Shown piece by piece: positions 1 to 14,051 of a DNA stretch of 14,051 nucleotides. A program made the position numbers and the translations under genes. The notes under the pieces are model-generated. The model did no database searches, had not been told where the DNA came from, and saw only the letters and a program-made list of their open reading frames with translations. Origin of the DNA: Gemmatimonadota bacterium (GTDB lineage: Bacteria > Gemmatimonadota > Gemmatimonadetes > Longimicrobiales > Longimicrobiaceae); contig JAHWJJ010000057.1 in the NCBI GenBank assembly GCA_019348475.1, positions 1-14,051 of the forward strand, read 5' to 3'. How positions within the stretch are numbered: position 1 is the stretch's first letter; each line of letters opens with the position of its first letter.

Positions 1-260
<260 letters not shown>

Positions 261-279
261 AACGCCGGGTTTTACCTTG

Positions 280-317
280 AAGTCCCGCCCCCCCGAAGCT
301 GGGAGGGCGGGACTTTT
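280..317 (+). terminator. Intrinsic terminator after the Ser-Gly protein gene
   Basis: A perfect 11-base stem (AAGTCCCGCCC at 280-290 pairing with 305-315) closes a 14-base loop and runs into TTTT at 314-317. It lies 20 bases past the stop codon of the gene on the left. Confidence 0.88.
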
Positions 318-387
318 GCGTGGCCGGGCTCAACTCGTTGGCAGATTCAAGTGGGTGCGTTGCCAAAATCAAGTGGCGCGCTACAAC

Positions 388-444
388 CGGCGGAGGCCCC
401 CTCCCCCCCGGCCCCCCTCCCCCGCTCCGCGGGAGAGGGGGGAG
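388..444 (+). repeat. Left inverted repeat of a MITE-like unit
   Basis: This 57-base G/C-tract sequence begins CGGCGGAGGCCCCCTCC and has a CCCGCTCCGCGGG core. The reverse complement of 564-620 matches it with about one substitution and single-base indels. The core is itself self-complementary, as in REP-type elements. The two arms enclose a DUF559 remnant. Confidence 0.85.
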
Positions 445-446
445 AA

Positions 447-566
447 CTACGCCTCCTCCCCGGGCTCCACCGCCAGCTCAATGCGCCGGACCACCGAGGG
501 AAGGTTCGACAGCACCTCATCATTCCGGAAGCGCAACACGCGGATGTTCAGCCGCTCCAGCGCCTC
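447..566 (-). pseudogene. DUF559 (endonuclease-like) C-terminal remnant
   Basis: On the minus strand a 39-residue frame ends at TAG 447-449. It reads EALERLNIRVLRFRND, then EVLSNLPSVVRRIELAVE. This matches the closing strand and helix of DUF559 proteins (typically ALGxRVLRFxNxEVLxNLxxVLxxI), a PD-(D/E)xK-related family associated with restriction and Vsr-like nucleases. No start codon and none of the N-terminal catalytic part is present; upstream the frame runs into the right inverted repeat. The peptide is intact but is only about one third of the family length. It is therefore either a gene fossil or the internal part of a non-autonomous repeat unit. Family assignment is from remembered consensus. 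Confidence 0.7.
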
Positions 567-620
567 CCCCTCTCCCGCGAAGCGGGGGAGGGGGGCCGGG
601 GGGGAGGGGGCCCTCCGCCG
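564..620 (-). repeat. Right inverted repeat of a MITE-like unit
   Basis: Mirror copy of 388-444, with core CCCGCGAAGCGGG and ending TCCGCCG at 614-620. Together with the left arm it bounds a unit of about 233 bases. I see no obvious flanking target duplication (left flank CTACAAC, right flank AGCCCGG). From 621 to 659 I see nothing further. Confidence 0.85.
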
Positions 621-659
621 AGCCCGGGGTACCCGCCTTCCCGAGCCGAACGCCGCGGG

Positions 660-691
660 CCGGCCCTCACCGGCCCCTCACCGGCCCCTCA
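660..691 (-). repeat. 11-mer tandem repeat containing the serine hydrolase stop codon
   Basis: Three units, TGAGGGGCCGG on the minus strand, of 11, 11 and 10 bases. The first unit supplies the TGA stop (689-691) of the serine hydrolase gene. Each later unit has another TGA, shifted in frame. Confidence 0.85.
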
Positions 692-1951
692 CGGCTCCGC
701 GGCGCGCCGGCGTGCCTCCCAGTCCACCAGCGGCGCGTCGACCATCGCGTTCTGGACGGCGTCGGCCACGGCGCGGCGCAGCGGGGCCTGCTTCTGGTTC
801 TGCGCCGTGGGGTTCACGCGCGTGGTGAGCAGCACCACGAACACGCTGCGCTCCGGGTCCATCCAGATGGAGGTGCCCGTGTATCCCGTGTGGCCAAAGC
901 TGCGCGGGGAGAAAAACCGGCCCGCGCTCGACTCGCCGGACGGCGTGTCCCAGCCCAGCGCGCGGCTGCTGCCGGCCACCTGCGGCGCCGTCCAGCGGGC
1001 AATGGTCTGCGGGCGAAGGATGCGGACGCCCCCGTACTCGCCGCCGTTCAGCAGCATCTGCGCGAACACCGCAAGGTCGCGCGCGCTCCCGAAGAGCCCC
1101 GCGTGCCCGGCCACGCCCCCCAGCGCCCACGCGTTGGGATCGTGCACCTCGCCCCAGATCAGGCCGCCGCGCGCGCTGTCCCGTTCCGTCGCGGCAATGC
1201 GGTCGCGCGGCACGCCGGGACGGTACCCCGTCTCGCGCATTCCCAGCGGCGCGAAGATGCGGTCGTGCACGAACGCGTCCAGCTCCTGCCCCGTGATCCG
1301 CTCGATGATCAGCTGCAGGAGGATGAGGTCCCAGTCGCTGTAGACGGTCTGCGCGCCGGGGGTGCCGCGCAGCGGGCGCAGGTTGATCTGCTCCAGGTAC
1401 TGCTGCCGTCCGCGGTGCGTCCGGTACAGCGGGGCGAACGCCTCCAGCCCGCCACGGTGCGTCAGCAGCATCCGCACGGTGATCGACTGCTTTGCGCTGT
1501 CCGCCAGCTCGGGCAGGTAGGATGCGACGGTGCGGTCCAGGTCCAGCCGCCCCTCCTCCTCCAGGATCATCGCCGCCGTCGTCGTGGCGACCACCTTGGT
1601 CACCGACGCCAGGTCGAAGAGCGTGCTGTCCGTCACCGCGGCGCTGCCGGGCGGCCAGTCCACCGCGCCGTAGCCGCGCAGGTGCACCAGGCGGCCGTGC
1701 CGCCCCACCGCGACGGCGATGGCCGGCGCCACCCGGTCCTCCACCGCCGTGAGCGCGATGGAATCCAGCTGCGCATTCAGCCGCGGCGTGAACCCGGCCT
1801 CGCCCGGCGGGGCGGCGGCGAGCACCGTGACCGCCTGCATCCGCGGCTCCGGCGCGGGCACCGGCGCCGGGACGGGCGCGGAGGCCGGAGGCGGCGTGCA
1901 GGCGCCGCCCAGCACGGCGGCCGCGGCGAGCGCGAGGGTACCTGGACGCAT
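689..1951 (-). CDS. Lipoprotein serine hydrolase (beta-lactamase/PBP-like)
   Basis: This 420-residue protein is probably an exported lipid-anchored serine hydrolase of the beta-lactamase/DD-peptidase superfamily (COG1680). It starts MRPGTLALAAAAVLGGAC, a signal peptide with lipobox LGGAC and modifiable Cys18, followed by a Pro/Ala-rich linker to about residue 36. The catalytic SxxK is SVTK at 116-119, the second motif is YSD at 204-206 (a common variant of YxN), and the KTG-equivalent is HTG at 354-356 within FGHTGYTG. The segment DPNAWALGGVAGHAGLFG near 271-288 is typical of the YfeW/esterase-like branch. The substrate cannot be told: peptide, ester and beta-lactam are all possible. The ATG at 1951 has GGAG nine bases upstream. 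It diverges from the DUF4349 gene and ends inside an 11-mer repeat. Confidence 0.87.
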   Translation of the reverse strand: MRPGTLALAAAAVLGGACTPPPASAPVPAPVPAPEPRMQAVTVLAAAPPGEAGFTPRLNAQLDSIALTAVEDRVAPAIAVAVGRHGRLVHLRGYGAVDWPPGSAAVTDSTLFDLASVTKVVATTTAAMILEEEGRLDLDRTVASYLPELADSAKQSITVRMLLTHRGGLEAFAPLYRTHRGRQQYLEQINLRPLRGTPGAQTVYSDWDLILLQLIIERITGQELDAFVHDRIFAPLGMRETGYRPGVPRDRIAATERDSARGGLIWGEVHDPNAWALGGVAGHAGLFGSARDLAVFAQMLLNGGEYGGVRILRPQTIARWTAPQVAGSSRALGWDTPSGESSAGRFFSPRSFGHTGYTGTSIWMDPERSVFVVLLTTRVNPTAQNQKQAPLRRAVADAVQNAMVDAPLVDWEARRRAAEP

Positions 1952-2001
1952 CGGTGTCGCTCCGCGTGAGTACGGTGGATCGGGATGTCGGATCGATCGG
2001 A

Positions 2002-2031
2002 ATCGTAGAGGCGCCTGCGGGCGTGCGTCAA
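2002..2031 (-). promoter_or_regulatory. Candidate promoter of the serine hydrolase gene
   Basis: On the minus strand TTGACG (2026-2031) is followed after 18 bases by TACGAT (2002-2007). This is a reasonable sigma-70-type match and lies about 50 bases before the ATG at 1951. Confidence 0.4.
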
Positions 2032-2089
2032 TCGGACCATCGCCGACGGCGGTGCATGGAGGGGTGGACGCCGATTCGCGGCCGCGGCG

Positions 2090-2125
2090 CGTTCAATGAA
2101 CGGTGGCGCGGCCGTTCAGTGAACG
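2090..2125. promoter_or_regulatory. Paired 13-base palindromes, candidate operator
   Basis: Two perfect palindromes of the form CGTTCA-N-TGAACG lie at 2090-2102 (central A) and 2113-2125 (central G). Their centres are 23 bases apart, about two helical turns, so two dimers could bind the same face of the DNA. They sit in the 334-base region between the divergent serine hydrolase and DUF4349 genes. The rest of that region (1952-2285) shows no gene. The cognate regulator is not identifiable here; the form suits a TetR-like or similar dimeric repressor. Confidence 0.5.
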
Positions 2126-2254
2126 TGTCCGGCGGGGGGAGCGCGTCAGAAACGGGCGGCGGGATGCATTGCAAGATGGCGCAGGCGAACAGCTTAGGTG
2201 CGCATCGATCCGCGTCGCGCGGCGGGAACGCGCCGTGCCCAGCACGTAGCTGCC

Positions 2255-2267
2255 GGTGACGGTCACC
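2255..2267. promoter_or_regulatory. 13-base palindrome just before the DUF4349 gene
   Basis: GGTGAC-G-GTCACC is a perfect dyad ending 18 bases before the ATG at 2286. A bound regulator there could affect transcript initiation or ribosome access, but chance cannot be excluded. Confidence 0.25.
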
Positions 2268-2285
2268 CCAACCCCGCATCCGCCG

Positions 2286-3296
2286 ATGAAACGCGCAGCC
2301 ATCCTCCTCATCCTCCTCTCCGCCGTCCTCTCCGCCTGCGGCAGGGACGACTCCGCCGAGTACCTTGAATCGGCCCCGTCGAGCGTGGCACGTGGCGGAG
2401 AGCGCGAGGAAGCCATCGTCACCATGGACGCCGCGGTGCCGGCCCAGGCACCCACCGCGGCACGGGGCCGGGAGGGCGGCGCACAACCGCGGTTCAGCAC
2501 GGCGGACACGGGCGTGGTGCCGCCGCAGCCCGGCCCGGTGGAGCCCGCCGTCTCCCTGAACCCCATGCTGATCCGCACCGGGACGGCGACCATCGAGGTG
2601 GATTCGCTGGAGCGGGGGATCGCGCAGGTGCGGGCGCTGGCGCAGCGCGTCGGGGGGATCGTGGGCAACACCACCATCAGTTCGGGCGCGCAGACGGCGC
2701 GGCAGGCCACGGTGGAGCTGCGCGTCCCCAGCGTGAACTTCGACCGCGCGGTGAGCGGGCTGGCACCCATCGGCCGCGTCGAGCACGTCCACGTGACGGC
2801 GGAGGACGTGGGCGAGGAGTTCACCGACGTAACGGCGCGCGTGGCGAACGCGCGCCGGCTGGAGGCACGGCTGCTGGACCTGCTGGAGCGCCGGACCGGG
2901 CGGCTGGAGGAGGTGCTGAACCTGGAGCGGGAGCTGGCCCGCGTTCGCGAGGAGATCGAGCGCTACGAGGGGCGGCTGCGGTACCTGCGCACCCGCACCT
3001 CCGTGAGCGTGCTGACGATCGCGCTGCATGAGCCGGGGGCCATCCTGGGCCGCCCCGGCGACCGCCCCATCCGCGACGCGTTCCGCCAGGCGTGGCGCAA
3101 CTTCGTGGAGATGATCGCCGGGCTGATCGCCGCTTCGGGGCTCCTGGTTCCGCTGGGGCTGCTGGTGTACGGCCTGTGGCGCGCGGTCCGATGGATCCGC
3201 CGCCGCGACCGGGAGCGCGACGCCGCATATCGCGAGGCCCTGCGCCGCGACCGCGAGCGCACCCCGCCGCCGGAGGAGCCGGCGATGCGCCCCTGA
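2286..3296 (+). CDS. DUF4349 domain lipoprotein
   Basis: This 336-residue membrane-anchored protein belongs to the DUF4349 family, whose function is not established. The ATG at 2286 is preferred over the GTG at 2256 because it opens directly into a signal peptide, MKRAAILLILLSAVLSAC, with lipobox LSAC (15-18). A low-complexity stretch to about residue 90 leads into the conserved core: IRTGTATIEVDSLERGIAQV near 96-115, a VGGIVGNTT turn near 122-130, RVPSVNFDRAV near 146-156, and GRVEHVHVTAEDVGEEFTDV near 163-182. A helical, probably coiled-coil segment spans 186-232. It is followed by the SVLTIALHEP strand, a transmembrane helix at about 274-299, and a very basic C-terminal tail. No good ribosome binding site is visible. 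It is convergent with pgl. Confidence 0.85.
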   Translation: MKRAAILLILLSAVLSACGRDDSAEYLESAPSSVARGGEREEAIVTMDAAVPAQAPTAARGREGGAQPRFSTADTGVVPPQPGPVEPAVSLNPMLIRTGTATIEVDSLERGIAQVRALAQRVGGIVGNTTISSGAQTARQATVELRVPSVNFDRAVSGLAPIGRVEHVHVTAEDVGEEFTDVTARVANARRLEARLLDLLERRTGRLEEVLNLERELARVREEIERYEGRLRYLRTRTSVSVLTIALHEPGAILGRPGDRPIRDAFRQAWRNFVEMIAGLIAASGLLVPLGLLVYGLWRAVRWIRRRDRERDAAYREALRRDRERTPPPEEPAMRP

Positions 3297-3343
3297 TTTC
3301 GCATGCTCGAACTCCGGCCCGCACGGCCGGCGCTCACTGCCAG

Positions 3344-3391
3344 GAGTGATGGAATAGATGGAGTGATGGAGTGATGGAGCGGAGTGATGGA
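3344..3391 (+). repeat. Degenerate octamer array (GAGTGATG)
   Basis: Four copies of GAGTGATG with a 9-base variant and a 5-base remnant, 47 bases after the stop of the DUF4349 gene and in its sense direction. It is the same family as the GTGAACGG/GTGAAGGG arrays elsewhere in the window; the zwf array mixes both unit types. A short CCGGCC/GGCCGG dyad at 3314-3330 precedes it. Confidence 0.75.
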
Positions 3392-3441
3392 CACCGTACG
3401 GCGTCGGCCAGCATGAGCGCGGCGGAGTAGTTCCTCGGTAG

Positions 3442-3550
3442 GCGCCCCGCAGATCCAGCACGCGTGCGGATCGCGCGGGGCGCTTTCCTCAGAATCACAA
3501 AACATACGCCTGGCTCGAAACCAGGTCGAGGAAGAGCCTTTTGCCGGCTC
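3442..3550. other. Three consecutive hairpins between convergent genes
   Basis: Hairpin 1 pairs GCGCCCCGC (3442-3450) with 3475-3483, with an inner GATCC/GGATC pair. Hairpin 2 pairs TTCCTC (3485-3490) with GAGGAA (3528-3533), enclosing CCTGG/CCAGG around the loop CTCGAAA. Hairpin 3 pairs GAGCC (3534-3538) with GGCTC (3546-3550). The stretch at 3490-3507 is unusually A-rich for this window. The hairpins could terminate the convergent DUF4349 and pgl transcripts or form a small structured RNA. I do not recognise an RNA family. Confidence 0.45.
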
Positions 3551-3555
3551 CGCAA

Positions 3556-3634
3556 TTCACCCGTTCACCCGTTCACCCGTTCACCCCTTCACCCCTTCAC
3601 CCCTTCACCCGTTCACCCGTTCACCCGTTCACCG
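3556..3634 (-). repeat. Octamer array overlapping the pgl stop codon
   Basis: Nine full units, written on the plus strand as three TTCACCCG, three TTCACCCC and three TTCACCCG, plus a partial one. On the minus strand, the sense of pgl, the units read CGGGTGAA and GGGGTGAA. The array encodes the last residues of pgl (VNG) and its TGA at 3613-3615. Confidence 0.93.
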
Positions 3635-4398
3635 ACCAGGCGCGACGCCGCGGCGGCGTCCATCACCCACACTGCCTCGCCGTCTCCGGGGCGAAGGAAC
3701 TGGGCGGGAAAGCGGAACGGGTCGATGGGGCCGCGCAGCACCTTCCACGCGATCTCCGCCTTGTCCGCCCCCAGCACCGGCAGCTCGATGCGCCCGGCCG
3801 CGTTCAGCACGGGCATGGTGAGCGTGATGCGCGGCTCGCCCAGCGGCAGGTGCAGGTTGGTGGTGGCGGTGCGCTCGCGCTGGTGGAGCGCGTCCGTGAA
3901 CGGAAACAGCGACGCGACGTGCCCGTCCGGACCCACGCCCAGGTGGATGAGGTCGAACCGCGGCACGCCGGGTCCGAAGAACGCCGCCAGCTCCCGCGCG
4001 TACGCCTCCGCGCCCTCCGCGGGGAGTAGCTCGCCGCGCATGCGGTGCACGTTCGCGGGCGGGATGGGCACGCGGGAGACGAACGCCTCATTCGCCATTC
4101 GGAAGTTGCTGCGTGTGTGGCCCGGCGGCACGCACCGCTCGTCGCCCCAGAACAGGTGGACGCCCTCCCACGGGATGCGCGACCGCAGCGGCTCGCTCCC
4201 CAGCAGCCGGTAGGCCTGCACCGGGCCGCTGCCGCCCGTCAGCGCGACGCTGAAGCGGCCGCGCGCCCGCACCGCCTCGATCGCCTGGCTGGCGAAGCTC
4301 TCCGCCAGCGCGGCGGAGGCGGCGTGCGCATCGGGGTGGATGGCGGCGCGGGCACCTGCGCGCCCGGTCTCGATGCTGTGCGGCGAATGCGTGGACAC
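3613..4398 (-). CDS. pgl: 6-phosphogluconolactonase
   Basis: Hydrolyses 6-phosphoglucono-delta-lactone to 6-phosphogluconate, the second step of the oxidative pentose phosphate pathway, in the cytoplasm. The 261-residue protein (family about 230-260) has the DevB/Pgl motifs ALTGGSGP (52-59), WGDERCVPPGHTRSNF (84-99), GVGPDGHVASLFP (154-166) and ITLTMPVLNAAGRI (191-204). There is no in-frame ATG before these motifs. The GTG at 4398 is chosen because it gives a normal family length, though it has no visible ribosome binding site, so the start is uncertain by some residues. The stop and last three residues come from the octamer array. It is separated from zwf and gnd by one opposite-strand gene, with which it shares a 90-base upstream region. 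Confidence 0.93.
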   Translation of the reverse strand: MSTHSPHSIETGRAGARAAIHPDAHAASAALAESFASQAIEAVRARGRFSVALTGGSGPVQAYRLLGSEPLRSRIPWEGVHLFWGDERCVPPGHTRSNFRMANEAFVSRVPIPPANVHRMRGELLPAEGAEAYARELAAFFGPGVPRFDLIHLGVGPDGHVASLFPFTDALHQRERTATTNLHLPLGEPRITLTMPVLNAAGRIELPVLGADKAEIAWKVLRGPIDPFRFPAQFLRPGDGEAVWVMDAAAASRLVGERVNG

Positions 4399-4420
4399 GG
4401 TGGATGGATGCGCGTACGTT
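4392..4420 (+). promoter_or_regulatory. Candidate promoter of the Clp N-domain gene
   Basis: TGGACA (4392-4397) and TACGTT (4415-4420) are 17 bases apart, which would start transcription near 4427. The -35 overlaps the proposed pgl start, as expected for a tight divergent pair. A CCCGGC/GCCGGG dyad follows at 4433-4449. Confidence 0.35.
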
Positions 4421-4488
4421 CTGGTGAGCGAGCCCGGCCGGCTGCCGGGAGCATGATCGGATCGACAACGCGAACCGGAGAGGGCGAC

Positions 4489-4980
4489 GTGCTCTTCAAG
4501 CGTCCCAAGATCCCGCCGCCGCGCCCGCCGGACCTGCCGTTCGACGAGGCCGCGCGCGACGCGCTGGGCGGCGCCACGGCGCAGGCCCAGCTCGCCAACG
4601 CCAGTGCCGTGCACGCCGAGCACCTGCTGCTGGCGCTGCTGGACGATCCCGCCGGCGTGCCGTCGCGCGCGCTGCGCCGCATCGGCTTTGAGCCGGACGA
4701 CATCAGGCGCCGGATAGAACACGCCGCCCCGCCGCGCCCGTGGGGTGTTCGCGCCCCCGTGCTCCCCTTCGCCGACGACACCAAGGGCGCCATCGAGTTC
4801 GCCATGCGCGAGGCGCGGATGGCCGGCGCGCGCGAGGTGGGGACGGGGCTGCTGCTGCTGGGTGTGCTGCAATCCCCGCAGGGCGTGCCCGTCCGCGCCC
4901 TCGCGCACCTGGACATCACCCCCGTCGCGCTGCGCTCCGCCATCGCGGCGGAGGGCAACCCGGCCGACCCTCACCCGTAG
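4489..4980 (+). CDS. Stand-alone Clp N-domain (double Clp repeat) protein
   Basis: The 163-residue soluble protein consists of two Clp N-terminal repeats and no AAA+ module. Repeat 1 is about 18-77 (FDEAARDALGG, AVHAEHLLLALLDD, VPSRALRRIG). Repeat 2 is about 94-153 (FADDTKGAIEFAMREARMAG, VGTGLLLLGVLQSP, VPVRALAHL). In ClpA/ClpC these repeats bind substrates, adaptors or phospho-arginine. Alone they could act as an adaptor or decoy for a Clp protease, which is inference. The GTG at 4489 is chosen because GGAGAGGG (4477-4484) lies four bases upstream. The ATG at 4453 would add 12 residues but has GGGAG too close to it. The gene interrupts the pgl-zwf-gnd cluster on the opposite strand and converges on zwf. 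Confidence 0.82.
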   Translation: MLFKRPKIPPPRPPDLPFDEAARDALGGATAQAQLANASAVHAEHLLLALLDDPAGVPSRALRRIGFEPDDIRRRIEHAAPPRPWGVRAPVLPFADDTKGAIEFAMREARMAGAREVGTGLLLLGVLQSPQGVPVRALAHLDITPVALRSAIAAEGNPADPHP

Positions 4981-4989
4981 CCACGCACT

Positions 4990-5008
4990 CTCTCGCGAAT
5001 CGCGAGAG
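4990..5008. terminator. Hairpin between convergent Clp N-domain gene and zwf
   Basis: A perfect 8-base stem CTCTCGCG/CGCGAGAG with a 3-base AAT loop lies nine bases after the TAG of the plus-strand gene. There is no T-tract, so it may be a bidirectional or weak terminator. Confidence 0.5.
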
Positions 5009-5018
5009 GGCGTGAACA

Positions 5019-5074
5019 TCACCCGTTCACCCGTTCACCCCTTCACTCCATCACCCCTTCACCCCTTCACTCCA
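5019..5074 (-). repeat. Mixed octamer array overlapping the zwf stop codon
   Basis: Seven full units on the plus strand in the order TCACCCGT twice, TCACCCCT, TCACTCCA, TCACCCCT twice, TCACTCCA, plus a partial one. On the minus strand they read GTGAACGG-, GTGAAGGG- and GTGATGGA-type units. The last zwf codons (GTG ATG GAG) and its TGA (5067-5069) are repeat sequence. Confidence 0.92.
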
Positions 5075-6655
5075 TCACACTCGGCACCGCCCAGCTGCGC
5101 CCCTCGCGCCGCAGCAGCTCGTCCGCGCAGCGCGGGCCCCAGGTGCCGGCGGGGTAGCGCTCCGGCTCGCCGCCCGCCTCCCACGCCTCCGCGATCGGGG
5201 TGATCAGCGTCCACGCATCCTCCACCTCGTCGCGGCGGGCGAAGAGGGTGGCGTCGCCCAGCATGGCGTCCAGCAGAAGGCGCTGGTAGGCCTCGGGCGA
5301 CTCCATGCCGAACGCCTTGCAGTAGTCGAAGTCCATGCTCACCGGGCGCAGGAGCCCCCGCAGGCCGGGCTGCTTGGCCTCGAAAAAGAGCGAGATCCCC
5401 TCGTCCGGCTGGATGTGCAACACCAGCGCGTTGGGCGCGGGGTCGTCGCGCTGCACCAGGTCGCGCACCGGGTGCGGCGCCGGGCGAAAGCGGATCACCA
5501 CCTCGCTGGCCTTGGCCGGCAGCCGCTTGCCCGTCCGCAGGTAGAACGGCACCCCCGCCCACCGCCAGTTGTCCACCGCCAGCCGCACCGCCGCGAACGT
5601 CTCCGTCCGCGACCCGGGCGGCACCTTCTCCTCGTCCAGGTAGCCGGCCATCGCGCCGTCCCCATCCCCCGAAGCCGCGTACTGCCCCCGCACCGCGCAA
5701 CGCTGGATGTCGTCGCCCTGCAGGAGCGGGATGGACTGCAGCACCTTGACCTTCTCGTTGCGGATGGAATCGGCGTCGTAGCTGGCGGGCGGCTCCATCG
5801 CGACCAGGGTGAGGATCTGCAGCAGGTGGCTCTGCACCATGTCGCGCAGGGCGCCGCTGCGGTCGTAGTAGCCGGCGCGCCCCTCCACCCCCACCGACTC
5901 GGCGACCGTGATCTGCACGTGGTCCACGTAGGTGCGGCTCCACAGCGGCTCCCAGATCACGTTGGCGAAGCGGAAGATGAGCAGGTTCTGCAGCGTCTCC
6001 TTGCCCAGGTAGTGGTCGATGCGAAAGATCTGCGGCTCGCCGAACACCCGCAGCAGCGCCGCGTTCAGCTCGCGCGCCGTCTTCAGGTCGCGCCCGAACG
6101 GCTTTTCGACGATGATGCGCGTCCAGCACTCCGCGTCCTCGGCGTCGCACACCAGCCCCGCGCGCCCCAGCCCCTCCGCGGTGGGCGCGATCACCGAGGG
6201 GGGGAGCGCCAGGTAGAACAGGCGGTTGCCGCGCGTCCCGTGCTCCCGGTCCGCCTCATCGAGCCGTTCGCGCAGCGCGGCGAAGGTCCGCGGGTCGTCC
6301 GTGGAGCCGTGCACGTAGAAGATGCGGCGCGCGAACTCTTCCCACTCCCCCGCGTCCGGCGCATCTGCGAACTCCTCCAGCGCGGCGCGCATCCGCTGGC
6401 GGTACTCGGCGTCGTCGATGTCCTCGCGCGAGTTGCCGACGATGCAGAAGGCGTCGGGGAGCAGGCCGTCCTCCTTCAGCTTCCACAGCGCCGGCATCAG
6501 CTTGCGCCGGGCCAGGTCGCCCGTGCCGCCGAAGATCACCAGCGCCAGCGGGTCCGGGGTGCGGACCCGCTGAAAGGGAGTGGCCAGCGAGGTGCGGAGG
6601 GGCGTCTCTCCCGCGGCGGGCGCGGGGGGGACGTCGGGAAGGTGCGGGTCGTCGC

Positions 6656-6659
<4 letters not shown>
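5067..6659 (-). CDS. zwf: Glucose-6-phosphate 1-dehydrogenase
   Basis: Oxidises glucose 6-phosphate to 6-phosphogluconolactone, feeding the pgl product next door; cytoplasmic. The 530 residues hold the N-terminal nucleotide-binding motif IFGGTGDLARRKL (42-54), EKPFG (185-189), and the substrate-binding and catalytic signature RIDHYLGKE (213-221) with its conserved His. A complete C-terminal domain follows (NEKVKVLQ, PFYLRTGKRL, MDFDYCKAFG, and an ending near RSWAVPSVME). Length is normal, slightly longer at the N-terminus, where about 35 Pro-rich residues precede the Rossmann fold. The ATG at 6659 overlaps the gnd stop codon as ATGA, so the two are probably translationally coupled, with gnd first. 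The open frame runs upstream through gnd, but that part is a shadow. The C-terminal VME is encoded by the octamer array. Confidence 0.97.
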
Positions 6660-7582
<923 letters not shown>

Positions 7583-7819
7583 GCCGCCCTCCGCTCGTCT
7601 GTGATGTCCGATCCGCGCCGCGCCGGCCGCCGCTGCAAGTCCCGTCCCCACCGACGAGATTTCACGCGGAGCCGCGGAGGAAAACGGGAGCCGCGGACGA
7701 AGGGAGAAAAGAAGGTTCCTGGTGGTCTGGCTGCAGGCAAGCGCCGGTCTGTCGTTCCGAGACAGGCGCCCGCGCCCCGGCGACGGTTCCCCACCTGCTG
7801 CTGCCCGGCCAAACGCGAA
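7583..7819. other. Gene-free region upstream of gnd
   Basis: No convincing gene lies between the gnd start and the rho terminator. It must hold the gnd promoter, but I see no clear -35/-10 pair. Two imperfect copies of CGGAGCCGCGGA occur at 7667-7678 and 7685-7697 within a purine-rich stretch. They resemble a degraded dispersed repeat of the GCGGAG(A/C)CGCGGAG kind. Confidence 0.4.
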
Positions 7820-7851
7820 GCGCGGCGGCCTCGCTGAGAAGGCCGCCGCGC
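7820..7851 (-). terminator. Hairpin terminator of rho
   Basis: A perfect 12-base stem (GCGCGGCGGCCT at 7820-7831 with 7840-7851) and an 8-base loop start 30 bases past the rho stop. Only scattered Ts follow on the minus strand, so the U-tract is poor. Confidence 0.75.
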
Positions 7852-7881
7852 GTCGTCGTCCCACCGATCTTCGGAGCGGGC

Positions 7882-9060
7882 CTACCGAAGGCGCGCCAGA
7901 AGCTCGTCGTTGCTTTTGGTGTCGTTCATCTGCTTGAGCAGCAGGTTCAGCGCGTCGTCCGGCCCCAGGGAGTGCAGCGCGCGGCGCAGCTGATAGATCT
8001 TGTCCAGCTGCTCCTGCGGAAACAGCATCTCTTCGCGGCGCGTGGCGCTTTTTTCGATGTCGATCGCGGGAAAGATGCGCTTGTCGGCCAGCGAGCGGTC
8101 CAGCACGATTTCGCTGTTGCCCGTTCCCTTGAACTCCTCGAAGATCACCTCGTCGCCGCGGCTTCCCGTGTCGATGAGGGCGGTGGCGATGATGGTAAGG
8201 CTGCCGGTGCCGCCCCGCACCTTGCGCGCGCTGCCGAAGAAGCGCTTGGGCTTTTCCAGCGCGCCGCTGTCGATGCCGCCGCTGAGCATGCGCCCCGTGC
8301 CGCGCTCCGTGGTGTTGTACGCGCGCGCCAGTCGGGTGAGCGAGTCCAGCACGATCACCACGTCGCGGCCGCTCTCCACCTGGCGCCGCGCGTGCTCCAG
8401 CACCATCTCGGCCACCGTAACGTGCCGCTCCGCCGGGCAGTCGAACGAGCTGGCGATCACGTCGCCGATGCCCAGCATCTGCATCTCCGTCACCTCTTCC
8501 GGGCGCTCGTCCACCAGCAGCACCATCAGGACGGCTTCGGGATAGTTGGTGTGGATGCCCCGCATGATGGCCTGCAGCACCGTGGTCTTGCCGGCCTTGG
8601 CCGGGGCCACGATCAGCGCGCGCTGCCCTTTGCCCAGGGGCGAGATCAGGTCGATGATGCGGTTGGTGAAGTCGCGGCGGGACCTGCTCCCTTCTTCGGG
8701 CGGAACCTCCAGCTTCAGCCGCTCGTCGGGGTACGAGGCGGGCAGGCTGCCGAAGTCGGCGCGCCCCCGGGCCTGCGCGGGGTCCAGCCCGTTCACCGCG
8801 TGCACGTCGTCCAGCGGCGGGCTCTTGCCGCGGCCGGGGGGGGTGCCGGTGGTGCCCTGCACCCGGTCGCCCGTGCGCAGCCCCAGGCGGCGGATGACCG
8901 ACTGCGAGACGAACACGTCGCCGTCGGCGGCCTGGTACCCGTTGGCGAAGGTGCGCAGGAACCCGCTGCCGCTGGGCAGGATTTCGAGGATGCCGTCCGC
9001 GGGAGGCTGCGGCGCACCGGCAGGACGCGCCGCGGCGGACGGTTGGGCGGAAAGACTCAT
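7882..9060 (-). CDS. rho: Transcription termination factor Rho, short form
   Basis: Hexameric RNA helicase that ends transcription of untranslated RNA. The 392-residue protein has a cold-shock-like RNA-binding domain at about 23-90 (GILEILPSGSGFLR, ADGDVFVSQSVIRRLGLRTG). The ATPase follows, with Walker A APAKAGKTT (152-160; usual form APPKAGKT), VDERPEEVTEMQ (183-194), Walker B VVIVLDSLTRLARAYN (234-249), a Q-loop in RKVRGGTGSLTIIATAL (279-295) and the R-loop KGTGN (311-315). The first 22 residues are Ala/Pro-rich, so the usual N-terminal helical bundle (about 45 residues in E. coli) is missing. The frame upstream of the ATG at 9060 does not encode it. There is no Shine-Dalgarno; the ATG follows an A-rich run. 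It is divergent from mrdA. Confidence 0.97.
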   Translation of the reverse strand: MSLSAQPSAAARPAGAPQPPADGILEILPSGSGFLRTFANGYQAADGDVFVSQSVIRRLGLRTGDRVQGTTGTPPGRGKSPPLDDVHAVNGLDPAQARGRADFGSLPASYPDERLKLEVPPEEGSRSRRDFTNRIIDLISPLGKGQRALIVAPAKAGKTTVLQAIMRGIHTNYPEAVLMVLLVDERPEEVTEMQMLGIGDVIASSFDCPAERHVTVAEMVLEHARRQVESGRDVVIVLDSLTRLARAYNTTERGTGRMLSGGIDSGALEKPKRFFGSARKVRGGTGSLTIIATALIDTGSRGDEVIFEEFKGTGNSEIVLDRSLADKRIFPAIDIEKSATRREEMLFPQEQLDKIYQLRRALHSLGPDDALNLLLKQMNDTKSNDELLARLR

Positions 9061-9403
9061 GCGGTTTTTTCGTTTTGGCTGATGCCGGAGCGCGAAGGCC
9101 CCGCCGGCAGATCGCCGGTCGGATGAGGGTTCGGGAGCTCCGCGGATGTCGGGCTGGATGCGCGCCGGGATAACGTCAATTTGCGTGCCGCAAGAGGGCC
9201 GCAAAGGAGAAGCGAAAGACGCGTGTGGAGCGCGGGATGCCAGAATACTAGCGTTCCCGCGGCCCGGCGCAAGGATGACGCGCGCGCCGCTCCGGGGCGC
9301 GGCGGTATGACACGCCACCCCGGGGGATGTTCCGACTGGCGCAAAAACGTTCGCGTGCTTAGCTTTAGGTCGCTTTCCCCGCAACGAAGCACGCCACCTT
9401 CGC
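9061..9403. other. Divergent rho-mrdA control region
   Basis: These 343 bases lie between two oppositely oriented starts and hold no supportable gene. On the minus strand TTGCGC (9267-9272) and TAGTAT (9245-9250), 16 bases apart, form a possible rho promoter. This would leave a leader of about 175-180 bases, in line with known long, attenuated rho leaders. No good promoter or ribosome binding site for mrdA was found. Confidence 0.35.
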
Positions 9404-11257
9404 ATGTCGCGCTACCAGGACCTCAGGCTCCGCCCCGCGGACCCGTTCCACCCGCACTCGCGCCGCCAGCGCTCGCTGTCGGCGGTGATGGCCATCGTGG
9501 TGATGCTGGGGCTGCTGGGAAGCGCCTTCTTCCGCACCCAGATCGTGCACAGCGGCGAGTTCGCCCTGCGCGCGGACGACAACCGCTTCGACGTCCTTCC
9601 CGTGCCCGCCCCGCGCGGCGCCATCTACGACCGGCACGGCGAACTGGTGGCCGAGACCGTCACCGGCTACAGCCTGCTGGTGGACCCCGCCCCGGCCGAC
9701 TCCATCCGCGCCTGGCTGGCCCCCGTGGCCACCATGCTGGCGCTGGACTCGGCCGGGGTGCAGGACGTCATCCGCCGCTCGCTGACCAGCAAGGGCAAGC
9801 CGGTGCAGGTGGTGCCGCACCTGACCTTCGAGCAGGTGTCGCGGCTGGAGGAGCGGCGCGAGCCGCTGCGCGGGCTCACCATGGACCGGAGCCCCATCCG
9901 CCGCTACCCGGCGGGGGCGGCGGTGGCGCACGTGGTGGGGTACGTGCTGGAGATCAACGACCGCGAGCTGCAGAGCCCCGCCTTCGAGGGGTACGTGCAG
10001 GGGCAGCACATCGGCAAGACGGGGATCGAGCGGCAGTACGAGCGCACGCTGGGGGGCAAGCCGGGCGCGCAGTTCATCGAGGTCAACTCGCGCGGGCAGG
10101 TGCTGGGCCGCTTCGCCCCCACCGTCAACGATCCGCCCGAGCCCGGCGCCGACGTGCGCCTTACCCTGGACCTGGACCTGCAGCGCTACGCGCACCAGGT
10201 GTGGCCCGCGGGAATGCGCGGCGCCGTGGTGGCCATGACCCCCGCCACGGGCGAAATCCTGGCCCTGTACTCCGCCCCCTCGTACGACCCCAACCTGTTC
10301 GTGGGCGGCATCCGCGCGCAGGACTGGGCGGCGCTCAACCGCGACCCCGCGCGCCCGCTGCTGAACCGCGCGGTCGCCGGCATCTACCCCCCGGGCTCCA
10401 CCTGGAAGCTGGCGACGGCCATCGTGGGGCTGGAGCGCGGGGTGGTCACGCCGGAGTACGTGATGCCGGTGGCTTGCACGGGGGGAATGGCGTACGCCGG
10501 CCGCTACTCCCGCTGCCACAAGCGCGAGGGGCACGGGCGGCAGAACCTGATCCAGGCCATCGCCAACTCCTGCAACGTCTACTTCTACCAGCTGGGCATC
10601 CGGCTGGGGCTGGACGTTCTGGCGGCGGAGGGCACGCGGCTGGGGTTCTCCCGCCCAACCGGGGTGGACATGCCGGGGGAGCGCGCGGGAACGTTCCCCA
10701 CCGGCAAGAAGTGGTACGTGGACCGCTTCGGCTGGCGCCCGCCGCCCAGCGAGGTGATGAACGTGTCCATCGGGCAGGGGCCCAACGCGCAGACTCCGCT
10801 GCGCATGGCGCAGTTCTTCTCGGCGCTGGCCGGCGGCGGCACCGCCCGCGCCCCGCACATGCTCATGCGCCGCCAGGTGCCGGTGGAGACGGACCTGCGG
10901 GTGAGCAAGCAGACGCTGCAGACGGTGTGGCAGGGGATGGCCGCGGTGGTCGAGGCCGGCGGCACCGCGCACGCGGTGGAGCTCGCGCGCTTCAAGCTGT
11001 ACGGCAAGACGGGAACCTCGCAGAACTCGGCCGACGCCAAAAAGCCGCACGCCTGGTTCACCGGCTTTGCCGGCCGGCGCGGCGGCGATCCGGAAATCGT
11101 GGTGGCGGTGGTGGTGGAGTTCGGGGAGAGCGGCTCCAGGGCGGCGGCCCCCGTCGCCGCGCGGATCGCCGAATACTACCTGAACAAGAAGCACGGCTTC
11201 GCCAACCCGCCCGTTGCCGCGGAGTCCATCGCGGACCCGGTGGGGCGGCGGGAGTGA
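9404..11257 (+). CDS. mrdA: Penicillin-binding protein 2 (cell elongation transpeptidase)
   Basis: Class B PBP that crosslinks peptidoglycan during elongation, working with RodA and MreB. The 617 residues comprise a short cytoplasmic N-terminus, one transmembrane helix at about 25-46, a PBP dimer/pedestal region from about 55 (VPAPRGAIYDRHGE at 67-80) and the transpeptidase domain. The domain has SxxK as STWK (332-335), SxN as SCN (389-391) and KTG at 535-537 (KLYGKTGTSQNS). Cys358, Cys371, His377 and Cys390 match the spacing of a zinc site reported in other PBP2 proteins. Usual partners (mreBCD, rodA) are not in the window. The ATG at 9404 lacks a visible ribosome binding site but leads straight into the typical MSRYQDLRLR start. 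The TGA stop is the first unit of an octamer array. Confidence 0.96.
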   Translation: MSRYQDLRLRPADPFHPHSRRQRSLSAVMAIVVMLGLLGSAFFRTQIVHSGEFALRADDNRFDVLPVPAPRGAIYDRHGELVAETVTGYSLLVDPAPADSIRAWLAPVATMLALDSAGVQDVIRRSLTSKGKPVQVVPHLTFEQVSRLEERREPLRGLTMDRSPIRRYPAGAAVAHVVGYVLEINDRELQSPAFEGYVQGQHIGKTGIERQYERTLGGKPGAQFIEVNSRGQVLGRFAPTVNDPPEPGADVRLTLDLDLQRYAHQVWPAGMRGAVVAMTPATGEILALYSAPSYDPNLFVGGIRAQDWAALNRDPARPLLNRAVAGIYPPGSTWKLATAIVGLERGVVTPEYVMPVACTGGMAYAGRYSRCHKREGHGRQNLIQAIANSCNVYFYQLGIRLGLDVLAAEGTRLGFSRPTGVDMPGERAGTFPTGKKWYVDRFGWRPPPSEVMNVSIGQGPNAQTPLRMAQFFSALAGGGTARAPHMLMRRQVPVETDLRVSKQTLQTVWQGMAAVVEAGGTAHAVELARFKLYGKTGTSQNSADAKKPHAWFTGFAGRRGGDPEIVVAVVVEFGESGSRAAAPVAARIAEYYLNKKHGFANPPVAAESIADPVGRRE

Positions 11258-11293
11258 ACGGGTGAAGGGGTGAAGGGGTAAAGGGGTGAACCG
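11254..11293 (+). repeat. Octamer array overlapping the mrdA stop codon
   Basis: Five units: GTGAACGG, GTGAAGGG twice, GTAAAGGG and GTGAACCG. The TGA in the first unit (11255-11257) is the mrdA stop. The fourth unit has TGA changed to TAA at the equivalent position, still a stop triplet. Confidence 0.92.
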
Positions 11294-11610
11294 GGTTCGG
11301 TCTTCCCCGGATTCGGCGGATGGGGCGCGGCGAGGGCGTGAGTGCGGATCAAGAGCGGCTCCTCCCGGTACACGGCGAAGGAGCCGATTCGGCGTCCCGG
11401 CCCGGTTGCGCTGAACGGATGGTCCAATGACATTGGGGGCTTCTGCGGCTGCTCCCACCGGGCCGGGCCGAAGGTAAGCGAAGGCCCGAAAAGAACCTGA
11501 CTCATTTTCGGTACGGCCGTTGCGACTACCCGGGCCCGTTGCGGCGGCCGGCGCGGAGCCGGGCGCAGATTGCAGAGCCACACCAGCGGGACAGATCAGT
11601 TGAAGCACCC
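11294..11610 (+). other. Leader region of the MerR-B12 regulator
   Basis: No gene is supported in these 317 bases. A CGGCTCCT/AGGAGCCG hairpin (11356-11386) without a T-tract may end the mrdA transcript. A perfect 13-base palindrome lies at 11424-11436, and CCGTTGCG occurs twice (11517-11524, 11536-11543), 19 bases apart. No clear promoter hexamers were found. Confidence 0.4.
11424..11436. promoter_or_regulatory. 13-base palindrome, possible operator
   Basis: CCAATG-A-CATTGG is a perfect dyad about 175 bases upstream of the MerR-B12 regulator. It could be an autoregulatory site, though its sequence alone does not show which protein binds. Confidence 0.3.
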
Positions 11611-12471
11611 ATGAGCTACCGTATCAAGCGCGTCGCCCACCTCACCGGGATCAACCCCGCCACGCTTCGCGCGTGGGAGCGCCGCTACGGCCTGGTGGCG
11701 CCGGACCGCACCGGGTCCGGCTACCGGCTGTACACGGACGAGGACGTGGCGATGCTTTCGCGCATCAAGATCCTGGTGGACGAGGGGCTCACCATCGGTG
11801 AGGCCATCAGCCGCGTGCGCCGGGGCGCCGAGCCGCTCCCCGCCGACGCCGGCGGCCCCTCGATCCGCGACGTGCGCTTCCGCATGCTGGAGGCGCTGGT
11901 CTCGTTCGACCGGCGCGGCGCGCTGGACGCGTACCAGGACGTGCTCCGCCTGCCGCCGGAGCGGCGGGTGGAAGAGGTGCTGCTCCCCGTCCTGCGCCAG
12001 GTGGGCGAGTTGTGGGAGGCCAACGAGTGCGGCGTGGGCGAAGAGCACTTCGCCAGCGCCTTCATCCGCGAGAAGCTGGCGGGGATCATCGAAGACCTGG
12101 ACACGGGCGCCGCCCGCGGGCCCGAGGCGGTCTGCGCCGGGGTCCCCGGTGAGCTGCACGAGTGCGGGCTGATGGCGGCCGCCATCCACCTGGCCACGCG
12201 CGGCTGGAGGGTGGTGTACCTGGGGACGAACGTGCCCATCGAGGAGATCCGGCGCATCCTGCGGCAGCGGCGCCCGGCGCTCTTCTGCACCTCCGTCGTC
12301 AACACGATGGGGATCGCCGACTTCCGCGACCTGGCCCGCGCGCTGCGCGAGGCCGCCCCCGCCGAGACCGAGGTCGTCATCGGCGGGGGCGGCGTTCCCG
12401 GCCCCTTCGCCAGCGCCGAAGGCGTGCGCCTGACCGAGGACCTGGCCGAGCTGGCGCACGTGGCCGCGTAG
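11611..12471 (+). CDS. MerR-family regulator with B12-binding domain (CarH/LitR-like)
   Basis: A 286-residue transcription factor. The N-terminal MerR helix-turn-helix is at about 3-70 (RIKRVAHLTGINPATLRAWE, RRYGL, GYRLYTDEDVAML). A four-helix B12-cap follows at about 85-165, containing the W-x9-EH signature: Trp135, Glu145, His146. A cobalamin-binding Rossmann domain from about 172 has ExHxxG (Glu181, His183, Gly186; His183 is the expected lower cobalt ligand), YLGTNVP (203-209) and GGGGVPGP (258-265). In CarH, adenosylcobalamin assembles a DNA-bound tetramer in the dark and light breaks it, usually derepressing carotenoid genes. The CarH residue His132, next to the Trp, is Glu136 here, so the light response may differ. 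No carotenoid gene is in view. The ATG at 11611 begins the standard MerR start. Confidence 0.88.
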   Translation: MSYRIKRVAHLTGINPATLRAWERRYGLVAPDRTGSGYRLYTDEDVAMLSRIKILVDEGLTIGEAISRVRRGAEPLPADAGGPSIRDVRFRMLEALVSFDRRGALDAYQDVLRLPPERRVEEVLLPVLRQVGELWEANECGVGEEHFASAFIREKLAGIIEDLDTGAARGPEAVCAGVPGELHECGLMAAAIHLATRGWRVVYLGTNVPIEEIRRILRQRRPALFCTSVVNTMGIADFRDLARALREAAPAETEVVIGGGGVPGPFASAEGVRLTEDLAELAHVAA

Positions 12472-12499
12472 CACGCCGTAACACCCGGAAAGATAAAGG

Positions 12500-12528
12500 G
12501 CCCCGCCCGGCGCGCTGCCGGGCGGGGC
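12500..12528. terminator. Hairpin terminator between convergent genes
   Basis: A perfect 12-base stem GCCCCGCCCGGC/GCCGGGCGGGGC with loop GCGCT starts 29 bases after the MerR-B12 gene stop. It is followed by TTCTCG, and on the other strand by CCTTTATC. It probably serves both this gene and the minus-strand NGP-repeat gene that ends at 12585. Confidence 0.82.
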
Positions 12529-12584
12529 TTCTCGTATCACCCATCCGCCGTCCCGCGGCACCGCTGTCGCGCGGCGACGCGCGT

Positions 12585-13415
12585 TCACATCTCGCGGATG
12601 CGGACGGGGCCGTTCGTGGTGACCACCCGGATGGTGGGGCCGCCGCCGTTCAGGTCGGTGCTGATGCGGCCGCCCGGGCTCCAGCGCCGCCGCTCGTCGC
12701 GCTCGGGACGAATGCCGTTGGGCGCGCTGATGGGGCCGTGCACCGTGGCGCTTTCCAGGTGCGCCGCGTAGCCCCGCGGCATCCGCAGGGTGACGGGGCC
12801 GTTCACCGTCTCCGCGTCCAGCCCTTCGCCGTTCCAGCGGCGGCCGGCAAGGGTCACGGTGATGGGCCCGTTCTGCGCCCGCGCCTGCACGTCGCCCGCC
12901 AGCTCGACCAGCGAGATGGGGCCGTTGACCGCCCGCAGGCGGATGTCCCCGTGCAGCCGCTCCACGGAGATGGGGCCGTTGTGCGTCTCCACGTTCAGGT
13001 CGGTGCGCGCGGGCACCAGGATCTCGTAGCTCACCGCCCAGCCGCGGTTGCGTCCGGAGGTCTCGGGGCCGGTGGAGCGGATGGTGCCGTCGGTGCTCAC
13101 GCGGATTCCGCGCGCGATCTCGCGCGCCTCGGCCTCGGTGCGGGCATTGGTCTGCACTTTGGCCCGCACCAGCACGTCGCGACCGTCCCAGGCGCGCACG
13201 CTCACGCCGCCGTTCTGGCCCGCGTCCACCCGCAGCGAGCCGCGCGCCGGGAGTCGCGTCTCGCGCACCTCGCAGTGCACTTCGCGGTCGGAGCCGCCGT
13301 AGTTGTTGTTGCGCCGGCAGTTCTCGACCCAGCGGTCGGAGTCGTTCTGCGCGGCGGCGGGGGCCGCGGCCGCGGCAAGGGCGATCGAAAAGAAGAAGAG
13401 GCGAGACGTACGCAT
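12585..13415 (-). CDS. Secreted NGP-repeat (DUF4097-like) protein
   Basis: The 276-residue protein is exported: signal peptide MRTSRLFFFSIALAAAAAPA with likely cleavage after AQ at about residue 23. Two cysteines, Cys33 and Cys48, may form a disulfide. From about 140 the protein is a series of short strands marked by a repeated triplet: HNGPIS, VNGPIS, QNGPIT, VNGPVT, VHGPIS and, at the end, TNGPVR. This is the pattern of DUF4097/adhesin-like beta-solenoid proteins. Their role is unknown; they often appear beside anti-sigma factors and envelope stress genes. The ATG at 13415 has GGAG seven bases upstream and opens directly into the signal peptide. The in-frame ATG at 13433 would give a poorer leader. 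It is convergent with the MerR-B12 regulator, sharing a terminator. Confidence 0.72.
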   Translation of the reverse strand: MRTSRLFFFSIALAAAAAPAAAQNDSDRWVENCRRNNNYGGSDREVHCEVRETRLPARGSLRVDAGQNGGVSVRAWDGRDVLVRAKVQTNARTEAEAREIARGIRVSTDGTIRSTGPETSGRNRGWAVSYEILVPARTDLNVETHNGPISVERLHGDIRLRAVNGPISLVELAGDVQARAQNGPITVTLAGRRWNGEGLDAETVNGPVTLRMPRGYAAHLESATVHGPISAPNGIRPERDERRRWSPGGRISTDLNGGGPTIRVVTTNGPVRIREM

Positions 13416-13536
13416 CGTGGGCTCCGCAAACATGCAGGGAAAGGGGGCGGCGGCACCGGGCCGCCGTGGAATCCGTTGCTCTGATGCGCCCGGCCCTTCA
13501 AGGGTTTGGACGGGGGATGAAAAAGGGCGCGGACTT

Positions 13537-13568
13537 CCACGGATCGGCGGATCCACGGATCGGCGGAT
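13537..13568. repeat. 16-mer direct repeat next to the LysR gene stop
   Basis: CCACGGATCGGCGGAT occurs twice in tandem. A decayed continuation (CGCGGGTCAGCGGATCGGCG) covers the stop codon of the LysR gene at 13575-13577. The rest of 13416-13574 holds the NGP-repeat gene's upstream region, with no clear promoter. Confidence 0.8.
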
Positions 13569-13574
13569 CGCGGG

Positions 13575-14051
13575 TCAGCGGATCGGCGCGGCGCGCGCGG
13601 CCTCGATGACGGCGACCACGCCGGGGTGGCGCGGACGCCGCTCGACGGTGAGGGCGAAGAAGTGCTGCACCGCGTCCGGTGCCTCGCCCACGGGGTCCAG
13701 CGCGTACCGCGCGCCCAACTCTTCCGCCACGATCGTGGGCGCGGCGATCACGCCGGCCGCGGACTGCGCCAGCAGCAGCCGCGACGTCCAGTCGTCCAGC
13801 TCGGCCACGACCGTCGGTACCACGGCGGCGGCGCGGAGCCACGCGTCCAGCGAGCGGCGCAGGGCCGCGTCCGAGGGTGGCATCACGAAGGGAACGGCGT
13901 CCAGCGACGCCGGAAACCCGCCCGCCAGCTGCGCGGCCAGTTCACCCGCCGCGAGCAGGGTCACGCCGCAGGGCCCCAGCGGGTGCGGCCGGGCGCGCAC
14001 GGCGGAGCCGGCGGGAAGCCGCTCGGCGCTCAACACCACGTCCAGCTCGCG
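13575..14051 (-). CDS. NhaR-like LysR-family regulator, C-terminal part
   Basis: The gene enters from the right edge, so the DNA-binding N-terminus is missing; 158 residues are visible. They match the effector-binding domain of NhaR-type LysR regulators: LDVVLSAERLP near the start, LGPCGVTLLAAGELA, GFPASLDAVPFVMPP, LRRSLDAWL, VVAELDDWTSRLLLAQSAAG, VIAAPTIVAEELG, then an HFFALTVERRPRHPGVVAVI end. E. coli NhaR has the parallel EFDDAALMKAFG, FVAPTLYA and ERMIQHPAV segments, as I recall them. NhaR senses sodium and activates the nhaA antiporter gene; whether this protein does so cannot be judged without its neighbours. The final residues and stop fall in a decayed 16-mer repeat. Confidence 0.77.
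   Translation of the reverse strand, partial: RELDVVLSAERLPAGSAVRARPHPLGPCGVTLLAAGELAAQLAGGFPASLDAVPFVMPPSDAALRRSLDAWLRAAAVVPTVVAELDDWTSRLLLAQSAAGVIAAPTIVAEELGARYALDPVGEAPDAVQHFFALTVERRPRHPGVVAVIEAARAAPIR

Follow-up and report, generated by a model that had tools for sequence, protein, structure and literature searches.

The window analyzed here, a stretch of 14,051 nucleotides (nt) from a Gemmatimonadota bacterium of the family Longimicrobiaceae (GenBank assembly GCA_019348475.1, contig JAHWJJ010000057.1, positions 1 to 14,051), carries four tandem arrays of short, GTGA-type units at or just beyond the 3′ ends of four genes, namely, a DUF4349 gene, pgl, zwf, and a PBP gene called mrdA in the initial annotation of this DNA (Table 1). 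The pattern GTGAN4GTGAN4GTGA occurs 15 times in the window, versus 0 times in 200 dinucleotide shuffles. The initial annotation had placed the stop codons of pgl, zwf, and mrdA inside the arrays, which we see in the sequence for all three, and had put the start of the DUF4349 array 47 bases past the stop of that gene, in agreement with the coordinates (stop end at 3296); the genes, two on the plus and two on the minus strand, are likewise as described, judging by Pfam-typed open reading frames (ORFs). All four arrays are G-rich in the sense direction of their gene, and the DUF4349 array is irregular. The zwf array is where it was said to be but extends slightly beyond the end given for it (5074), and the claim that each unit has one TGA fails at the fourth unit of the mrdA array, GTAAAGGG, which has none. 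One inward pair of arrays is present in the window, between the convergent genes DUF4349 and pgl (3344-3391 and 3556-3634), and the spacer enclosed by it has a GC-rich hairpin at approximately 3442 to 3484 when its first 150 nt are folded (z = −2.3; 4 of 200 shuffles equally good). A scan of the window against Rfam at gathering scores gave 0 matches.

Table 1. Arrays, the stop codons they contain, and the genes they adjoin in the window
Feature	Position	Strand	Detail
Irregular GTGATGGA octamer array with interruptions, candidate left arm	3344..3391	+ (G-rich on +)	47 nt 3′ of DUF4349 stop
Spacer between inward-facing arrays of convergent gene pair	3392..3555	no strand	
GTGAACGG/GTGAAGGG array, candidate right arm	3556..3634	− (G-rich on −)	Ten GTGA; extends into pgl ORF
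pgl stop codon TGA	3613..3615	−	Third array unit
GTGAAGGG/GTGATGGA/GTGAACGG array, zwf 3′ end	5019..5078	−	Eight GTGA
zwf stop codon	5067..5069	−	Second array unit
GTGAACGG/GTGAAGGG array, mrdA 3′ end	11254..11293	+	
mrdA stop codon	11255..11257	+	First array unit
DUF4349 gene	2286..3296	+	Pfam DUF4349
pgl gene	3613..4398	−	Pfam Glucosamine_iso (6-phosphogluconolactonase)
zwf gene	5067..6659	−	Pfam G6PD
PBP gene	9404..11257	+	Pfam PBP transpeptidase and PBP dimerisation domain; name mrdA from the initial annotation

The genome to which the window belongs (G000; 504 contigs, 76.6% complete) was sampled as 100 contig stretches in addition to the window, giving 820 kb, with 51 of the 100 contigs chosen without regard to arrays. 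From two relatives of the same genus we sampled 364 kb (G010) and 294 kb (G012), in stretches chosen at places with previously listed arrays. Genes were called with our own codon-usage script, seeded with nine genes of the window, and arrays were found by self-matching at periods of 5 to 12; when 20 of the 25 ORFs ending at a stop-free octamer array were checked with Pfam, 17 gave a family match. The array set comprises 275 seven- and eight-base arrays, excluding those less than 60 bp from the end of a stretch, of which 22 were dropped for want of a called neighbor on one side and 6 lie deep in ORFs, leaving 247.

The pattern (GTGAN4)3GTGA has 715 overlapping matches in G000, and a looser GTGA pattern is present in 10 of 21 genomes. 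Three consecutive copies of GTGAACGG occur in 2 of the 21 genomes, with 183 matches in G000 and 3 in one other; nine genomes of the same genus have 0. Same-genus relatives carry AGTGCGNN octamers beside or in place of GTGA units, with a four-unit AGTG pattern reaching 762 matches in G010 and 381 in G012. The main units of G000 are the octamers GTGAACGG, GTGAAGGG, and AGTGCGAA; the last of these, like AGTGCGGA and AGTGCGGG in the relatives, has no stop codon in any sense frame. The existence of such stop-free units in G000 as well as in its relatives allows a direct test of the idea, put forward in the initial annotation, that the arrays are stop cassettes.

With respect to placement, 205 of the 247 arrays, read along their G-rich strand, are closer to the ORF 5′ of them (P = 6e−27; median distances of 15 versus 184), independently of the direction of that ORF, such that arrays are sense at 3′ ends and antisense upstream of starts. 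This 5′-side rule is followed in each genome (111/129 arrays in G000, 51/63 in G010, and 43/55 in G012), in convergent (42/46), tandem (143/177), and divergent (18/21) spacers, with three arrays belonging to none of these types, as well as in the contigs chosen without regard to arrays (28/33). Octamers follow it in 170 of 196 cases and heptamers less strictly (35/51; P = 0.011), and, considered alone, arrays whose 5′ side faces a gene start reach significance in G000 (42/54). In tandem, i.e., codirectional, spacers, the nearest border is a 3′ end in sense for 85 arrays, a 5′ end in antisense for 58, a 3′ end in antisense for 27, and a 5′ end in sense for 7. Sense and antisense arrays are about equally numerous in these spacers (92 versus 85), where orientation sets which ORF an array hugs. 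The sense orientation that the initial annotation took to be invariable therefore holds for the four arrays of the window but not genome-wide, where arrays upstream of starts are mostly antisense; “always in sense” is the view from the 3′ ends of a broader rule of outward placement. The phase of the array at the stop is not fixed (chi-square, P = 0.4). A gradient in base composition was rejected as the cause, given that the outward strand after stops has no G skew once arrays are masked. As a separate observation, the masked outward strand upstream of starts is mildly G-skewed in the G000, G010, and G012 samples (approximately 0.10 to 0.18 at 10 to 50 nt), which implies leaders that are C-rich in the mRNA sense.

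The initial annotation had proposed a stop-in-all-frames cassette, in which a period-8 unit with one TGA would catch ribosomes that read through the stop or have shifted frame. Enrichment at 3′ ends, to be sought in a genome scan against shuffled positions, is indeed found: 33 of 80 GTGA arrays in the G000 sample overlap or touch a sense stop, versus 1.8 expected under random placement and 7.0 under placement confined to spacers, and 50 of the 80 are sense arrays located −24 to +60 relative to such a stop (the count takes in 80 of 81 nonedge GTGA arrays, as only contigs with a generic tandem match were kept). A further 14 of 95 arrays lie at contig ends. A lack of such enrichment, together with equal sense and antisense orientation, had been named as speaking against the proposal; with enrichment this strong, the first is not what we observe, and the second is, in codirectional spacers. 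It is also true that the stops involved in the window are all TGA and that three period-8 units give a stop in every frame. However, stop-free units are found at 3′ ends in sense just as stop-bearing ones are (47/52 versus 81/87) and follow the 5′-side rule overall (81/100 versus 124/147), and in convergent spacers, where start codons are distant, the rule holds for 12 of 15 stop-free (P = 0.035) and 30 of 31 stop-bearing arrays. Units without GGG follow the rule as well (118/144), which excludes a G-quadruplex as a requirement, and so do units with neither stop nor GGG (53/62; 33/35 at 3′ ends). Since units free of both are equally placed, the common cause of placement is not a stop-in-all-frames cassette, nor is it a G-quadruplex. 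Moreover, 77 of the 205 anchored arrays, the other 128 being at 3′ ends, are antisense on the 5′ side of a gene, where a stop would be useless, and the occurrence of arrays per gene is sporadic. Ho and Hurst (PMC6764699), in the part of their paper drawn on here, found, for eubacteria, no evidence that fail-safe stops are under selection, a null result that also tells against a cassette. The stop-free units at 3′ ends lead us to reject it as a general cause, and we regard it as a highly improbable explanation of the arrays.

The junctions with coding sequence differ between the two kinds of unit. Stop-free arrays mostly have an intact native TGA, TAG, or TAA immediately before them, and stop-bearing arrays often overlap the stop. 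An intrusion of 4 to 24 nt into the ORF is seen for 32 of 81 stop-bearing versus 2 of 47 stop-free arrays (P = 6e−6), with one further stop-free heptamer array reaching 51 nt into an ORF; in GTGA arrays, the stop comes from the first unit in 18 cases, from the second in 8, and from the third in 5 (P = 0.011 versus equal numbers). The second suggestion of the initial annotation, that the repeats survive only where their stop is harmless, is right as regards the mostly stop-bearing nature of the intruding arrays and the antisense orientation of all arrays deep inside ORFs (6/6), but it leaves the placement of stop-free arrays unaccounted for.

Arrays also occur as inward-facing pairs. At least two arrays are present in 54 of 185 array-bearing spacers, where the orientations of neighbors are +− in 42 cases, −+ in 1, ++ in 6, and −− in 10; with looser detection and gaps of ≤60 nt, the corresponding counts are 24, 0, 8, and 15. 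When spacers are stratified by length, more of them than expected have both a plus array in their left half and a minus one in their right half, with 19 cases versus 9.4 in G000 (P = 0.001), 14 versus 6.0 in G010 (P = 0.001), and 17 versus 4.6 in G012 (P = 0.0002). The unit class is the same at both edges in 11/19 (P = 0.02), 9/14 (P = 0.02), and 16/17 (0 of 5,000 shuffles) of these cases, respectively. At one G012 locus (L268, 10649-10735), two arrays form the arms of a hairpin (z = −6.9) that occupies the whole spacer from a stop to the start that follows; the sister species G013 has retained this hairpin.

These observations bear on polar erosion, under which arrays would arise anywhere in a spacer and in either orientation and would then be moved, through deletion or overwriting of the DNA 5′ of them on the G-rich strand, until coding sequence halts the process. 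Such a process would account for a rule that holds with both ORF orientations, for the near-zero gap at 3′ ends and the wider gap at 5′ ends (≤10 nt in 98 of 128 3′-anchored versus 20 of 77 5′-anchored arrays) in any phase, and for the equal sense and antisense numbers and the inward pairs. It predicts neither the co-occurrence of arrays at the two edges nor the matching of their units, nor does it predict that sisters differ in having or lacking entire array-bounded stretches, and both edges of the arrays are sharp, with no clear polarity of growth. We consider polar erosion quite unlikely.

The comparison of sister species covered three 20-kb stretches of G012 against G013, one of them also against G009 and G016 (identity to G012 mostly 86 to 96% in long segments of G013, mostly 88 to 93% with short pieces up to 98% in G009, and 71 to 88% in G016). 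At two of the six array sites read, an array-bounded stretch is present or absent between sisters. At both of these (sites A and B), an array pair of G012 encloses a core that contains long inverted repeats (TGTCATCCTGAG ... CTCAGGATGACA), and this core is missing, with other DNA in its place, from G013 and G016 at site A and from G009, G016, and G013 at site B. The G016 sequence at the stop of site A resembles a degenerate unit, so that an arm may have begun from native sequence. The number or kind of units differs at three of the four sites common to G012 and G013; at site C, nine versus two units are found on one side and octamers versus heptamers on the other, and at the fourth, site D, the hairpin differs by substitutions.

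The G012 core has nine copies in the sample of that genome, seven of which lie between inward arrays as judged by eye (one array in this count being degenerate and unmarked by the script), at varying distance and sometimes with other repeats intervening. Of two other dispersed cores in G010, one is accompanied by one or more arrays in 11 of 17 regions (baseline 45/159) and the second in 1 of 13; five seeds tested in G000 gave values near or below baseline (2/18 to 6/17; baseline 81/302). As bracketing varies by core, a view of the arrays as arms able to enclose various cores fits better than one in which they are the ends of a single core. Array-bearing spacers of ≥250 bp are somewhat richer in dispersed repeats (P = 0.007 to 0.02). 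The possibility that arrays are the edges of a single repeat was rejected: unmasked flanks gave 1442 versus 56 matches, a count that took in arrays matching arrays, and masked 3′ flanks behaved like random spacers. Small dispersed repeats reportedly lie inside the heptamer arrays of Nostoc.

Other inverted and tandem repeats were noted along the way. One G012 locus (L262, G012:C14) has nested inverted repeats, with octamer arrays outermost, then GCGAATGAATTCGC-type arms, and a CATCCTGAG core innermost, and a dispersed inverted-repeat family with CACACAGAGACACAGAG ... CTCTGTGTCTCTGTGTG arms occupies 11 spacers, some near a gene end (G012 L263, L264, L268, L269, L271, L276, L277, and L278). The window itself has a dispersed repeat of the CCCCTCCCCC...GGGGGAGG type in two inverted copies (397-428 and 584-610; similar ones at L103 and L033), a 15/16-base tandem repeat with GGATC motifs that adjoins the 3′ end of a minus-strand ORF ending at 13575 (13536-13588; not of the 7- to 8-base kind), and, at the contig edge, a perfect (GCTCCG)8 hexamer array (1-50).

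The arrays display outward polarity, abutment on stops in any phase, pairing with a match in unit class, presence or absence between sisters, and change of unit, all of which are directly seen, and we consider it probable that they are the paired, inward-facing outer arms of inverted-repeat elements that lie between genes, fixed in position by the adjoining coding sequence. We read them as borders of spacers rather than as a stop safety device because stop-free repeats follow the same placement. Such an element would have a G-rich array at one edge of the spacer and a C-rich array (G-rich on the opposite strand) at the other, the two being separated by a short loop or by other repeats, and many sites would retain only one recognizable arm. 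The pair may spread as a single repetitive (mobile or convertible) unit, slippage may lengthen and alter its arms, and the point where an arm ends may be set by purifying selection acting on coding sequence. The sense array at a stop would then be a matter of geometry, in that a stop-free unit would end after the native stop, and a TGA or TAG unit may enter the ORF by up to 24 nt because it supplies a stop itself. A translational role is not needed for the placement of the arrays.

Several results weigh against these paired arms. By the strict rule, two arrays are found in only 54 of the 185 array-bearing spacers, spacers within pairs are not more structured (27 versus 135 controls, P = 0.27), and exact inverted copies are barely above swapped controls (21 versus 16, 17 versus 15, and 21 versus 17). 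The 5′-end class alone is not significant in G010 (20/30, P = 0.10) or G012 (15/24, P = 0.31). The G012 core family has no member in the G000 and G010 samples, and its absence from G000 means that the reading of the window arrays as an element rests on geometry and pairing. Most of the common cores tested are not bracketed by arrays above baseline, and with arrays masked, the DNA beyond them is repetitive in 87/247 cases, versus 83 to 93/247 for random spacers. Finally, no mobilizing enzyme was identified when Y1 transposase genes were compared with array content over the 21 genomes: Y1_Tnp, a family-level and not RAYT-specific assignment, is present in 13 of them without a visible tie to array content, with none in array-carrying G002 and two in G016, which has no match to the GTGA pattern.

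A role at the RNA level, in which arrays in outgoing transcripts (mRNA 3′ ends, or antisense RNA from 5′ ends) would influence termination or stability as G-rich, R-loop, quadruplex, or hairpin signals, would fit the like orientation of arrays toward outgoing transcripts at both gene ends, the strong hairpin retained in G013 at L268, and the GGG with spacers of 4 to 5 nt in the main G000 units. However, GGG is dispensable for placement (118/144), and arrays are sporadic, with 17 sense arrays per 265 3′ ends in the G000 contigs chosen without regard to arrays. Orthologous gene ends give a similar picture: an array stands at the zwf stop in 4 of 16 readable loci (G000 itself, G017, G014, and G010), with units that are all different by eye, and one is found ≤60 nt from the stop in 3 of 10 relatives for mrdA, 0 of 9 readable loci for pgl, and 1 of 10 for rho. 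An RNA-level role appears unlikely. Conservation of array location across orthologues is weak, and this sporadic placement argues against arrays being indispensable to any particular gene. Some additional 8- to 9-base repeats lie at 69 to 220 nt from the mrdA, pgl, and rho ends, and the pgl matches in G015:C419, G010:C26, and G017:C6 have one in-frame stop codon within the matched stretch. A further zwf search of named genomes gave 80 loci with a best identity of 53% and was not used.

Outward placement of short-unit arrays has already been published, without explanation, for the GGGNATC and GGGGA(C/T)T heptamers of Xanthomonas and Nostoc (Rehm et al. 2015, PMC4692102, here and below as far as the portions of that paper considered go). 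These heptamer arrays lie near the 5′ neighboring ORF by the same strand rule, and overlap stops, and G-quadruplex formation with a preference for four units is a further mark of the class; in those portions, the authors state that a role was not found. Sense and antisense arrays are about equal for aligned ORFs in Xanthomonas (30/35% and 35/35%), with 70 and 75 convergent pairs in two genomes, and Nostoc shows unequal strands (18/34%) and few pairs. The arrays described here are alike in their nearness to the 5′-side ORF (205/247) and in their inward pairs (+− 42, −+ 1) and differ in comprising both octamers and heptamers, with several units per genome and many without G tracts or stops. The main G000 octamers match neither published motif, and the heptamers AGGGAAT and AGGGAAC come near them. 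Beyond what those portions of the earlier work cover, we examined the unit-class match of pairs and presence or absence between sisters.

Two other systems are comparable in part, again going by portions of the papers cited. The TAACTGA heptamers of Beggiatoaceae (MacGregor 2015, PMC4679880) give stops in all three frames one way, which is stated to limit their overlap with ORFs to the ORF ends, and resemble the present arrays in being intergenic arrays of a short unit; most TAACTGA sets point to a downstream start codon, whereas the arrays near starts described here are mostly antisense to the start. REPINs (Bertels and Rainey 2011, PMC3116915) are extragenic short repeats in inverted doublets that form hairpins and act as a unit, and a GTAG/CGTC REP tag is named in the title of PMC3733652. 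A REPIN-like inverted-doublet hairpin is clear at L268, with two arrays in 54/185 spacers only; unlike in REPINs, the arms are tandem arrays of variable length and unit, and a link to a RAYT transposase was not found. Our search, limited to one open library, found no literature account of GTGA-type octamers. We tentatively raise the possibility that these are miniature intergenic elements whose ends are inward-facing tandem arrays instead of fixed inverted repeats, with the unit, octamer or heptamer and with or without stops or G tracts, swapped between sisters at constant place and polarity, and with a putative process spreading a species-specific unit to hundreds of gene borders.

A single genus with units that bear stops, G tracts, or neither is a natural experiment that separates these causes, and neither of them is needed. 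In addition, sister species at approximately 86 to 96% identity, with and without an array-bounded stretch at one site, make the birth or movement of arrays directly testable.
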